From positions 1-43,715 of the forward strand of contig CAKZHE010000084.1 of assembly GCA_936920195.1 (NCBI GenBank): a stretch of DNA of 43,715 nucleotides. Direction: 5' to 3'. Position numbers and translations under genes: made by a program. Below are positions 9,192-27,655 of this stretch, piece by piece. The DNA comes from an uncultured cyanobacterium. GTDB lineage: Bacteria > Cyanobacteriota > Cyanobacteriia > Cyanobacteriales > FACHB-T130. Every line of letters starts with the position of its first letter. Within the stretch, counting starts at the first letter, position 1. The notes below the pieces were generated by a model. It worked only from the letters and a program-made list of their open reading frames with translations. It had not been told where the DNA came from and did not search any database.

Positions 9192-9250
9192 GTAGGGGCA
9201 ATCCCCCCGTGGTTGCCCCGATTACTCGTTCCCAGACTCTGCTTAGGAAC
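9192..9250. repeat. Two repeat fragments between dnaK and dnaJ
   Basis: At 9192-9219 lies the GTAGGGGCAA ... TTGCCCC palindrome also found at 4761-4790 and 38062-38089. At 9227-9250 is a decayed first arm of the CTCGTTCCCAGGCTCTGCC repeat described at 20585. The pair is inserted between two functionally linked genes. Confidence 0.65.
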
Positions 9251-9281
9251 CAGTTGATAGGTTTAAAGATTCAATAATGCT

Positions 9282-13229: not shown

Positions 13230-13568
13230 GCATTCAGAAAAAACACGCCTATCCATTGAAAGGCGCATACAATTTAAGAAATTTCGACTCTAGCCCTACC
13301 TATCCTATAGATAGGTATTCGATTGAGGACACACAACATACCAACGCTGACCAGGATAAAGAATCTTAGAAAATACTCAATCAGCCCAAGCAACTGCTCT
13401 CGCCTTTTAAGCTCCTGAACTTCCTTACCCTATATGAGGTACTATACGATATGGGCGAGCAAATAGTCAAGCACTTTAAGTTGAAATTACAAAACAAGTT
13501 AGAAACTAAGCAGGATTTACGCAACTGGCACATGATGGCATTAAATTAGCGTGCATTTGAAGTTATTA
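13230..13568. other. Intergenic stretch; hairpin but no gene seen
   Basis: The first part of a 757-base gap. At 13297-13317 a perfect 8-base hairpin, TACCTATC / GATAGGTA with a CTATA loop, follows the synthetase gene by about 70 bases. A 32-codon frame at 13450 has no ribosome binding site and is not called. At 13512 a GGATTTACGCAACTG string resembles GGACTTACGCA strings at 42321 and 43637. Confidence 0.5.
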
Positions 13569-13613
13569 CTCGTTCCCAGGCTCTGCCTGGGAATGCCATC
13601 CAGAGGCTCTGCC
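13569..13613 (+). repeat. Truncated REP-like palindrome (first hairpin only)
   Basis: Starts CTCGTTCCCAGGCTCTGCC and includes the GGAATGCCATC spacer and the first part of the second hairpin, then stops at GGCTCTGCC, where the MITE begins at a TA. Compared with the full copies at 20585 and 21362, everything after this point is missing. Confidence 0.75.
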
Positions 13614-13938
13614 TAGGCTGTTGACTTTGTGCCTTTTTAGAGGATTTCTATTCATGCAGTTTCTGAGTAATCGATTTCGGGATTGATGTAGGGGCGGGTT
13701 TGGGCAGGAATTTTAATCTTTACCAATAATCTCCATAAACCCGCCCCCCATGTACCGTTAAAATCAATTAATGCTGAATTTTCTGGCGGTGGGGGGCGGG
13801 TTCAGATAATTTGTTGGTGGATATCAAACCTCTGGACTAACCCGCCCCTACAGATTTGGGTCAATGATTTAGACACACTTGCTCACATAGTTATTGCATG
13901 AAAAATATTGCTCAAAAACTCGCAAAGTCAACAGCCTA
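13614..13938. mobile_element. 325-bp MITE with terminal inverted repeats and probable TA target duplication
   Basis: The left end TAGGCTGTTGACTTTG (13614-13629) is matched exactly by the reverse complement at 13923-13938. Similarity goes on inwards: both ends continue with a TTTTT tract and a CATGCA about 40 bases in. The first TA probably is the duplicated target, as in IS630/Tc1/mariner-type MITEs. No transposase frame is inside. The interior (13684-13812) is a copy of the GC-rich repeat found at five other places here. Left ends alone occur at 19293, 21328 and 42337. Confidence 0.78.
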
Positions 13939-19172: not shown

Positions 19173-19246
19173 CTAACTTTCTCTCTTAAAAGACCTATTT
19201 TAACTATTTTTTCGCCAAATCAGGACTGAAAACCATTTCACTCGTT

Positions 19247-19536
19247 ACTCGTTCTCAGGCTCTGCCTGGGAATGCCATCGAGAGGCTCTGCCTAGGCTGT
19301 TGACTTTGTGCGTTTTTATGGTTTTTTATTCATGCAGTTTCTAGGTAGTCAGTTGCGGGATTTTCAACCAATACCAAGTCCTTTTGATTGACCATGATTT
19401 ATGTAGGGGCGGGTTTGGGGATGAATTTTAATATTCACCAATAACCTGAATAAACCCGCCCCCGACGGCATCGATGAAGTCAATTAATGGTAAATTTGAG
19501 GGTGTATGGGGCGGGTTTAGATCATTTGTTGGGGGA
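19247..19536 (+). repeat. Composite repeat: truncated REP palindrome, MITE left end, GC-rich repeat
   Basis: Within the 564-base gap 19173-19736, three modules lie in the same order as at 13569-13812. The first hairpin of the REP-like palindrome (19247-19292) stops at GGCTCTGCC. The MITE left end TAGGCTGTTGACTTTG starts at 19293. The GC-rich repeat runs 19400-19536. No right terminal repeat is found, so this copy is cut. The rest of the gap (19537-19736) shows no gene. Confidence 0.78.
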
Positions 19537-20558: not shown

Positions 20559-20584
20559 CGAGCCTGTTTTCCCTCGTTTTTTCC

Positions 20585-20734
20585 CTCGTTCCTAGGCTCT
20601 GCCTAGGAATGCCATCAAGAGGCTCTGCCTCGGATGATCGCCAAGCGAGGCAGAGCCTCTGGAGAGTGTTCCCAGTCAGAGACTGGGAACGAGCAACGAG
20701 TAAAACGAGCAACGAGTAAACGAGTAAACGAGTA
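20585..20734 (+). repeat. Full REP-like repeat of three hairpins, RAYT-proximal copy 1
   Basis: Three palindromes in a row. CCTAGGC-TCT-GCCTAGG is at 20591-20607. A perfect 15-base inverted repeat AGAGGCTCTGCCTCG / CGAGGCAGAGCCTCT is at 20618-20632 and 20646-20660. GTTCCCAGTC-AGA-GACTGGGAAC is at 20668-20690. A tail of repeated AACGAGTAAA units reaches 20734, 15 bases from the stop of the transposase gene. The same design is at 21362-21496. Confidence 0.9.
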
Positions 20735-20749
20735 ATTACCCTCTTTCCT

Positions 20750-21283
20750 TCAGAAATCAATCAATTGAACCTGCAATAAACTGGGCAATTCCATATAATT
20801 CCGGTAGCTAGAATAACGCCAATGAGATGGATCATCAACATAACCGCGACGCACAGGATTATTGTGAATATACTCTAATTTTTGAATAAACATAGCCTGA
20901 TCAGAAATTGCCTGGGGATGAAAACCTTCTTGCCAAAGTTGATATTCTTGCCTTGCCTTATGCTTTAGCTTATGGAATTCTAGCTGTTGAAGTATATAGT
21001 TGGCGTTATTTCTCTGAAGCAAATCAACAATAGAACGAGCAGTAAATGATTTAAAATTTCCTATTTCTTTAGATAAATTAGCAGCAGCAGCGATGAGATG
21101 AAGGTGATTTTCCATGATCACATAACCGTATAATATCAACCGCTGCTGAGATTGGAGAAAGTTGAGGGAATCAATGATAATTTGGGCAATTTCAGTGTTG
21201 CCAAATAGTGGCATCCAATTGACTAATGTGCAAGTCAGGAAGTGGGGTTCAGTTCCTAATACATGATAGCGGCTGCGTCCCAT
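20750..21283 (-). CDS. REP-associated tyrosine transposase (RAYT, IS200-like Y1 fold)
   Basis: A 177-residue single-strand-specific transposase-like protein. It has the RAYT N-terminus GRSRYHVLGTEPHFLTCTLVNWMPLF, the HUH motif in VIMENHLHLIAA, and the C-terminal part KLEYIHNNPVRRGYV with SHWRYSSYRNY, where the catalytic tyrosine is expected. RAYTs cut and join at REP palindromes with a folded single strand, and are domesticated relatives of TnpA. The gene lies between two direct copies of a long three-hairpin repeat, the arrangement expected for a RAYT and its cognate REPs. The ATG at 21283 gives a full-length family N-terminus. All motifs are present, so it may be active. Confidence 0.88.
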   Translation of the reverse strand: MGRSRYHVLGTEPHFLTCTLVNWMPLFGNTEIAQIIIDSLNFLQSQQRLILYGYVIMENHLHLIAAAANLSKEIGNFKSFTARSIVDLLQRNNANYILQQLEFHKLKHKARQEYQLWQEGFHPQAISDQAMFIQKLEYIHNNPVRRGYVDDPSHWRYSSYRNYMELPSLLQVQLIDF

Positions 21284-21315
21284 GCTATTGCTTTGATTTA
21301 CATTGGGCTTAAACT

Positions 21316-21496
21316 GAAGGCAGAGCCTAGGCTGTTCACTTTGTGCCTTTTTATGGAGTTACTCGTTACTCGTTCCCAGGCTCTGCCTGGGAATGCCATC
21401 GAGAGGCTCTGCCTCGGATGATCACTAAGCGAGGCAGAGCCTCTGGGGAGCGTTCCCAGTCAGAGACTGGGAACGAGGAAAACGAGGAACGAGGAA
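21316..21496 (+). repeat. MITE left-end fragment followed by full REP-like repeat, RAYT-proximal copy 2
   Basis: At 21328-21355 is a short MITE left end (TAGGCTGTTCACTTTG) preceded by GGCAGAGCC, an arm of the palindrome. From 21362 follows a complete three-hairpin repeat that differs from the copy at 20585 at about eight positions over roughly 110 bases, with a tail of GAACGAGGAAAACGAGG type. Both copies have the same orientation and bracket the RAYT gene. Confidence 0.88.
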
Positions 21497-27416: not shown

Positions 27417-27537
27417 ACAGCCAACCTCAGCGATCGCTTCTCTATTCTATCGGAAATGCGATCGCTTGACTGTCAAAACCGTTTCTCTCCATCATATCAT
27501 GTCCGGTCGATTGCCCACTATTAAACTCGTTAAACTG

Positions 27538-27642
27538 GTTCCTAGGCTCTGCCTGGGAACCGAGATCAAGAGGCTCTGCCTCGCTTGGAGATCGTCGAGG
27601 CGGAGCCTCTCGTAGGCATTCCTAGGCAGAGCCTAGGAACGA
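27538..27642 (+). repeat. REP-like repeat, diverged copy
   Basis: Contains TTCCTAGGCTCTGCCTGGGAA, AGAGGCTCTGCCTCG with partner CGAGGCGGAGCCTCT, and a closing CATTCCTAGGCAGAGCCTAGGAAC. It is similar to the copies at 20585 and 21362 but the third hairpin differs, the last arm being an inverted copy of the first. Confidence 0.75.
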
Positions 27643-27655
27643 GTGAAATTCCCAA

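Follow-up and report, generated by a model that had tools for sequence, protein, structure and literature searches.

The window, by which we mean the whole stretch of 43,715 nucleotides analysed here, contains a RAYT (TnpA-REP) gene and several copies of a palindromic repeat (Table 1). The first-pass annotation had proposed a RAYT gene with an HUH motif that lies between two repeat copies, and both parts are borne out by an intact open reading frame of 177 amino acids between two repeats of about 110 bp. The protein scores 102.7 bits against the NCBIfam model REP_Tyr_transpos (cut-off 80) and 23.6 bits against Pfam Y1_Tnp, just over the cut-off of 23. It carries the HUH motif ENHLH (residues 58-62), the WQ motif (117-118) and YIHNNP, in which Tyr138 is presumed from the sequence to be the catalytic tyrosine. 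H60, H62, Y138, N142 and P143 are kept in 81 of 81 aligned RAYT relatives; position 141 is also Y or A and position 61 also F or C among these members. The structure model has a mean pLDDT of 90.6, and its best fold match in the PDB is 4er8, a RAYT bound to a REP hairpin (E 7.1e-10, TM 0.65 and 0.70), followed by the ISDra2 and IS608 transposases. The HUH motif, the single tyrosine, the signature and a score above the NCBIfam equivalog cut-off, together with a gene bounded by inverted repeats that are dispersed genome-wide, place the protein in the RAYT/TnpA-REP family. At the window locus the innermost repeat pair is degraded, with two REPINs as the nearest full copies.

The two flanking copies, at 20585-20712 and 21369-21496, are 128 nt long each and 88% identical. 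They differ at 7 positions over the first 109 nt, which agrees with the roughly eight differences counted at first pass for a repeat of about 110 bases, and at 15 over all 128 nt. Each copy is an inverted pair of arms of 48-51 nt that are 81-84% complementary and separated by a 13-nt spacer. Read from 5' to 3', an arm consists of the tag (C/A)TCGT, hairpin A, about 6-12 nt and hairpin B. The lower stem of hairpin A is mostly TTCCC/GGGAA, its upper stem is variable and its loop has 3-4 nucleotides. Hairpin B mostly has 5-8 bp, with upper stem and loop similar to those of hairpin A. Three hairpins per repeat had been annotated; we find four small ones instead, A and B in each arm. The 15-base perfect stem described earlier exists as a pairing, but it is formed by the two B hairpins pairing with each other. 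As an arm is made of two hairpins and a copy is an inverted arm pair, the window repeat is a REPIN built of two-hairpin units. Its size, which had been considered to make the cognate pair unusual, is probably not unusual, since PMC2718517 lists intergenic inverted repeats of 80-110 bp for P. fluorescens; it is the tag and the double hairpin that are unusual.

A covariance model of the arm was built from 43 arms and used to search the window with filters off. It detects three full pairs and two single arms, along with two weak remnants. Four more copies or fragments had been assigned to 9227, 13569, 19247 and 27538: the last is a full pair (27533-27645) and the two in the middle are single arms, but the first is a remnant only. 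An Rfam scan of the window gave no match at or above a family's gathering score. A second repeat, GCTGTT(G/C)ACTTTGTGC followed by a T-rich tail, occurs at 13617-13632, 19296-19311 and 21331-21346 and in weaker form at 13920 and 42340. It comes after both single arms and after the RAYT-side remnant, its exact copies are always on the + strand, and 8 more exact sites are found in 6 of 20 sampled stretches of the same genome, with none in the loci examined from other genomes. It might make up the remaining half of a second composite repeat.

Table 1. The RAYT gene, repeat arms and tag arrays in the window.
Feature	Position	Strand	Score or basis
RAYT (TnpA-REP) gene, 177 aa, no internal stop	20750..21283	minus	ORF, NCBIfam, Pfam, fold
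Gln112 codon of the RAYT	20948..20950	minus	residue matching the REP type
REPIN 1, left arm (tag, hairpins A and B)	20583..20633	+	63.7 bits
REPIN 1, right arm	20644..20695	minus	58.7 bits
Tandem array of six CTCGTT tags, which ends in the tag of the REPIN 1 right arm	20688..20732	minus	
Weak arm remnant just upstream of the RAYT start, where an arm is expected	21314..21360	minus	10.2 bits, E 0.14
REPIN 2, left arm	21367..21417	+	64.7 bits
REPIN 2, right arm	21428..21479	minus	65.3 bits
Tandem array of three CTCGTT tags, which ends in the tag of the REPIN 2 right arm	21472..21493	minus	
REPIN 3, left arm	27533..27585	+	54.7 bits
REPIN 3, right arm	27595..27645	minus	62.4 bits
Single arm	13567..13617	+	58.1 bits
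Single arm	19246..19296	+	47.5 bits
Arm remnant	9223..9260	+	10.5 bits, E 0.12

The structure of the arm is conserved while its sequence varies. In the alignment of 43 arms (42 distinct) 12 of 16 pairs are changed on both sides, with 92 double-changed cells compared to a shuffle mean of 15.2 and none of 500 shuffles as high, relatedness being uncorrected. The covariation score is 0.466 and reaches at most 0.078 with slid partners. The arms were chosen for their stems, so that the 97% pairing is no evidence by itself; the evidence lies in the variety of pair types. One position links the two hairpins of an arm. In 75 of 79 arms the third base pair from the loop is identical in both hairpins, against a permutation mean of 30.0 with none of 10,000 permutations as high (again uncorrected for relatedness). 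The four rows with unlike third pairs are L066, L070, L115 and L122.

The repeat is dispersed through the genome of the window. A BLAST search with the first copy gives at least 90 matches in the own genome, both strands counted, among the best 40 of 327 candidates that were scored. Twenty stretches with a total of 394,522 bases contain 26 strong arms (39 bits or more), of which 20 form 10 pairs, 8 of them close and 2 with some 165-190 nt between the arms. All 10 sampled pairs are in + then - order, the inverted orientation in which two close REPs constitute a REPIN. A proportional estimate gives some 370 arms in 5.7 Mb, a rough figure from a biased sample, since the contigs were picked because earlier matches named them. 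At L025/L007 (G000:C304:12894-13201), an IS200-like transposase fragment ends beside a full repeat copy.

A close relative of the RAYT (E below 1e-50) is present in 15 of 100 related genomes, the own genome included; the genes of G002, G006 and G058 are broken. An alignment-based scan of species genomes gave at least 551 relatives among at least 588 stretches, of which the best 80 were kept, so that 95 loci were compared (two are present twice and one is a near-identical sister). The relatives belong to Cyanobacteria, Pseudomonadota, Planctomycetota, Chloroflexota, Poribacteria, Cloacimonadota, Campylobacterota, Balneolota, Ignavibacteriota, Bacteroidota and others. Among 398 genomes of the phylum of Methylomonas fluvii (G101), 5 have a match. 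Ten plasmid records were found, the best at 46.8%, and 13 pattern matches in viral contigs contained no relative.

We searched the flanks of the 95 genes for two-hairpin arms tagged with TCG[TC], both near the gene (within 400 bp) and far from it (1.2-2.4 kb away). At least one arm lies within 400 bp at 79 of 95 loci, and 16 loci have no full arm in this range. The near flanks contain 169 arms in 74,387 bases compared to 6 arms, 5 of them at one locus, in 180,899 far bases, which is 2.4 times more DNA; at the 15 loci L026-L040 the far flanks comprise only 600 bases. When the flanks of all 95 loci, the window locus included, were shuffled by base five times, no arm was obtained. TCGT arms flank RAYT relatives of Cyanobacteria, Pseudomonadota, Planctomycetota, Chloroflexota and others; no such arm is found in the Bacteroidota rows L130, L133 and L134, nor a TCGT arm in the hairpin listing of the Bacteroidota plasmid records L275-L277. 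Of the 46 loci with arms on both sides, 27 have the order (+)arm-gene-(-)arm, 11 are (-,-), 5 are (+,+) and 3 are (-,+). The window locus is of the (-,+) layout, with the expected upstream arm left as a weak remnant. The prevailing (+)arm-RAYT-(-)arm layout across phyla suggests that the gene arose inside an inverted arm pair.

The tag itself was examined without presupposing it, by collecting the feet of perfect hairpins. TCGT is the tetramer found at the largest number of loci, near the gene at 72 of 95 and far from it at 4, with hairpins of any kind present in the near flanks of 86 loci compared to the far flanks of 47. GTAG stands at the hairpin foot at 4 loci near and 5 far, GTGG at 5 near, and CGTC at 4 near and 2 far. 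With TCGT at 72 loci against 4 for GTAG and 5 for GTGG, we reject the assignment as a classic REP, which is defined by GT[A/G]G (PMC3686654) and is also known from cyanobacteria in its GTAG form (PMC3733652). The assignment as a CGTC-tagged REP is rejected likewise, as CGTC is near the gene at just 4 of 95 loci. In being a palindrome of variable sequence in high copy, the repeat does resemble a REP in the strict sense. A possible further tag is seen at L135, an Actinomycetota MAG, which combines a Ser112 RAYT and A-type hairpins with the foot TCCGTCCC instead of TCGTTCCC. A more distant RAYT, L270 (G321), is flanked by many CCGGAACAGGAT-type palindromes, another repeat family.

The first-pass annotation held that repeat copies equally abundant in relatives lacking a RAYT of this clade would speak against the pairing. 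Abundance follows the clade both in cyanobacteria and in Pseudomonas, with per-genome counts taken among the best ~58 and ~49 scored candidates, respectively. Of the same 100 cyanobacterial genomes, all 15 that have the RAYT are repeat-rich (28 or more model matches, a threshold set after seeing the counts), compared to 10 of 85 without it (Fisher 1.3e-11); for any match at E 0.01 the numbers are 15/15 and 25/85 (Fisher 1.6e-7). In 119 Pseudomonas genomes, 16 of 16 with the RAYT are rich (7 or more matches, the threshold again set after the counts) compared to 29 of 103 without a detected RAYT (Fisher 2.4e-8), and any match at E 1e-4 is found in 16/16 and 49/103 (Fisher 4.6e-5). Equal abundance is therefore not observed, yet a share of the RAYT-less genomes in both sets is rich. 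The RAYT gene predicts the repeat, and these genomes imply that the repeat often outlives the gene, or that the gene was missed. All 10 repeat-rich cyanobacteria without the RAYT share their family code with a RAYT-bearing genome, which fits a loss of the gene without proving it. The many RAYT-less genomes that carry the repeat could also mean that the repeats belong, as non-autonomous elements, to a different mobile element and merely insert near RAYT genes. We consider this highly improbable, because the arms are often close to the gene and mirrored around it in many phyla, and because the other RAYTs of the own genome that were looked at (C50, C219, C258, C265) have visibly different flanking sequences as judged by eye, several with a GTAG-like start.

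When each locus is typed by its third pair as G, C or A, the type of the repeat follows the lineage of the RAYT and not that of the host. The tree of 81 RAYTs leaves out 14 of the 95 loci (11 with stops or too short, the duplicates L059 and L063 and the near-identical L034); on it, the 66 labelled rows require 4 type changes compared to at least 21 in 100 shuffles. Labelled RAYTs of cyanobacteria are paired with the G type, except those of G098 and Phormidium tenue, which have C-type repeats and nest among proteobacterial RAYTs. The exact C-type (proteobacterial-type) hairpin is found in 1 of the 100 related genomes, G098, where 7 exact copies lie between 672,741 and 675,367 (2.6 kb) around the RAYT at 674,663-675,178. 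As far as exact matches show, the pair in G098 appears to be a recent arrival that is still unspread. The repeat type is a marker for the horizontal arrival of a REPtron, and in G098 the 7 exact hairpin copies of a foreign pair have all stayed close to the gene.

The third base pair is matched by a single residue of the RAYT. In the 66 rows whose hairpins A and B agree in the third pair, residue 112 and third pair combine as Gln with G:C in 19 of 20, Arg with C:G in 36 of 36 and Ser with A:T in 10 of 10, a total of 65 of 66. Among the 177 columns compared, the normalised mutual information with the repeat type is 0.97 for column 112 and 0.56 for the next column. Outside the discovery set, 21 of 21 further loci with Gln, Arg or Ser at this position and a readable repeat fit the rule. 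These are L033, L091 (hairpin B alone), L108, L113, L121 and L135; L029, L039, L040, L056, L099, L102, L103 and L112, with types from arms; and L266-L269, L272, L274 and L273. The 21 do not include the Lys rows L087 and L109, the mixed rows L066, L070, L115 and L122, the Bacteroidota rows L130, L133, L134 and L275-L277, L270 (residue in a gap, other repeats), L271 (the same gene as L096), or L064, L131 and L132 (no usable hairpin or residue). The exceptions to the rule are Pro112 with G:C (L126) and Lys112 with C:G (L087, L109). Methylomonas fluvii (G101) has three Arg112 RAYTs with C-type repeats and a fourth, insertion-interrupted RAYT with Ser112 and an A-type repeat downstream.

Such a match could be a marker of the clade that involves no contact. 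The tree of 91 rows, with 45 C/Arg, 21 G/Gln, 14 A/Ser, 2 C/Lys and 1 G/Pro, contains only 5 type changes and 7 residue changes, and the type switches give one independent pair on well-supported branches and 2 to 5 when the best tree made without column 112 is used, numbers that carry no statistical power. In the independent pairs the residue never went the other way; for G/Gln there is no difference in half of the pairings. With so few independent switches the match could partly be due to shared descent, and a contact by residue 112 is what we infer. Nevertheless, we find a mere clade marker rather doubtful. All columns share the same tree, yet the second-best column stays far behind column 112; Ser with A:T appears more than once, in separate regions of the tree, and stands beside Gln with G:C on well-supported forks (L076 beside L126 and L127); and the two types within the one genome of M. 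fluvii both match their residue. In the structure model, helix 95-103 and W117 are connected by a coil in which residue 112 is located. The sequence alignment to 4er8 starts two residues past 112, so that the place of this residue in 4er8 is not fixed. In this alignment W117 and Q118 match W94 and Q95 of the E. coli RAYT. At the places of E. coli E100, H101 and R104, which are discussed as GTAG contacts (PMC6006769, PMC8266576), the 81 RAYTs mostly have Pro/Ala, Glu/Gln/Lys and variable residues, respectively. The tag-contact residues of the E. coli RAYT are thus not kept, and, unlike there, one consensus extends across many phyla.

The layout of a rayt gene between REPs, their co-descent and the link with abundance are known from reports on other systems (PMC2817692, PMC3116915). 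As in the RAYT/REPIN systems described for E. coli, Pseudomonas and Stenotrophomonas (PMC2817692, PMC3116915, PMC3686654, PMC8266576), we observe an HUH-Y1 protein with inverted repeats round its gene, dispersed inverted doublets, gene-linked abundance, co-descent and the fold match to 4er8. In contrast to these, the tag is TCGT instead of GT[A/G]G and each unit has two hairpins of linked sequence. The IS200/IS605 transposases (ISDra2, IS608) share the HUH-Y1 fold; membership in this group (class 1) is rejected, as the motif is YIHxNP rather than the Y[IV]ENQ given in Table 1 of PMC6006769, and the repeats far outnumber the gene. Another close known group is TnpA-Y1 subclass 2.6, equal to Bertels group 5, which PMC6006769 characterizes by NH[LIV]H, WQ, YIH[QN]NP and a C-terminal SS and reports without GT[A/G]G. 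The window protein fits all four motifs of Table 1 there and is a candidate member of the subclass. According to the same source, subclass 2.6 genes are also flanked by structures with genomic copies, like the window repeats; the structures of the non-GTAG RAYT groups are called atypical and were found by manual inspection. The subclass is described there as mostly from Bacteroidetes with weaker structures, whereas the repeats here are defined, strong and present in many phyla. CGTC-tagged REPs as reported in PMC3733652 are likewise tagged palindromes in inverted doublets in several phyla, but they have one hairpin and no transposase beside them, while the TCGT repeat has an adjacent RAYT. The system is of the known RAYT/REPIN kind, and new are the other tag, the double hairpin and a testable one-residue rule. 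Neither the TCGT repeat with its two hairpins nor the residue rule turned up in the literature searched; the supplement of PMC6006769 and Bertels 2017 may hold some of the repeats. Of 64 papers that contain one of six 11-mers of the motif, the 40 listed appear unrelated to judge from their titles.

The first-pass proposal that the RAYT is paired with these palindromes is supported by the comparative tests of location, abundance and type, all of which are linked to the clade. A cognate pair, joint descent and a matched recognition sequence are supported. We consider it likely that gene and repeats form a REPtron, a Y1 HUH single-strand nuclease with its cognate REPINs. Each arm would present hairpin A, with its foot at the TCGT tag, and hairpin B. 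The RAYT would read the third pair from the loop in both hairpins by residue 112, in the segment before the WQ strand, with Gln for G:C, Arg for C:G and Ser for A:T; an insertion before this strand in subclass 2.6 has been suggested to help recognise unusual REPs (PMC6006769). By analogy to RAYTs in general, among which that of E. coli cuts single-stranded REP (PMC8266576), it would then nick repeat DNA in single-stranded form close to the CTCGTT tag, on strands that replication exposes, and join the ends, and REPINs would in this way be copied or moved between genes. A further step is the proposal of a pan-bacterial RAYT lineage with a one-residue code, in which residue 112 sets the accepted third pair, this pair is required in both hairpins, and a single exchange re-aims the nuclease; the chances for and against it seem to us evenly balanced. 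If it is true, one amino-acid exchange would re-aim a single-strand hairpin nuclease to another REP family. The residue rule makes the co-evolution of transposase and repeat directly testable by mutation. With a single consensus and a single covariance model the repeats of non-GTAG RAYTs are found in many phyla, and one residue predicts their type, which bears on how RAYTs recognise their own REPs and on what the repeats of the non-GTAG groups look like.

Observations at individual sites bear on whether the repeats move. A RAYT block present in G014 is absent at the same site in G042, where 51 unrelated bases are found and no clean insertion boundary or target duplication. Comparison of 400 kb of G014 with 400 kb of G042 revealed no empty REPIN site; these 800 kb contain 7 model matches, and each of those that we located by hand falls on or outside the end of an aligned block. 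One Pseudomonas gene border was read in 29 of the best 30 loci (L216-L245; 77 genomes have a match). This slot holds a REPIN in 4 loci, a collapsed palindrome in 2, a GT[A/G]GGAG repeat in 20 and other sequence in 3; none of the 29 is empty, other repeat families being there instead. The contents vary between species, so such slots are exchangeable, which may reflect insertion, conversion or selection for a hairpin. In L232 and L242 the REPIN has seemingly collapsed to a single perfect palindrome, to which both A hairpins contribute their outer halves.

It is as if any hairpin serves in this slot, as would be expected for a domesticated RAYT that binds REPINs to regulate or remodel DNA, with repeats that persist as bidirectional terminators or roadblocks and not by moving. 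The gene is also present in one copy per genome in the cyanobacterial and Pseudomonas sets, but G101 has four. Against domestication, the repeat sequence tracks the RAYT lineage even across phyla, and a purely host-serving terminator needs no match to residue 112. We therefore regard domestication as possible though unlikely and favour the REPtron, for which the mobility of the REPINs is predicted.

The tag is also found in tandem. CTCGTT arrays with a period of 7-9 lie beside arms at 20688-20732 and 21472-21493 in the window, at L252:211-234 and at L255:9850-9871, and all 4 arrays of three or more tags in the sample and the window abut a REP arm. Such arrays may reflect repeated joining at the tag, and slippage would fit as well. 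A longer CTCGTT array is present in the downstream flank of L040.
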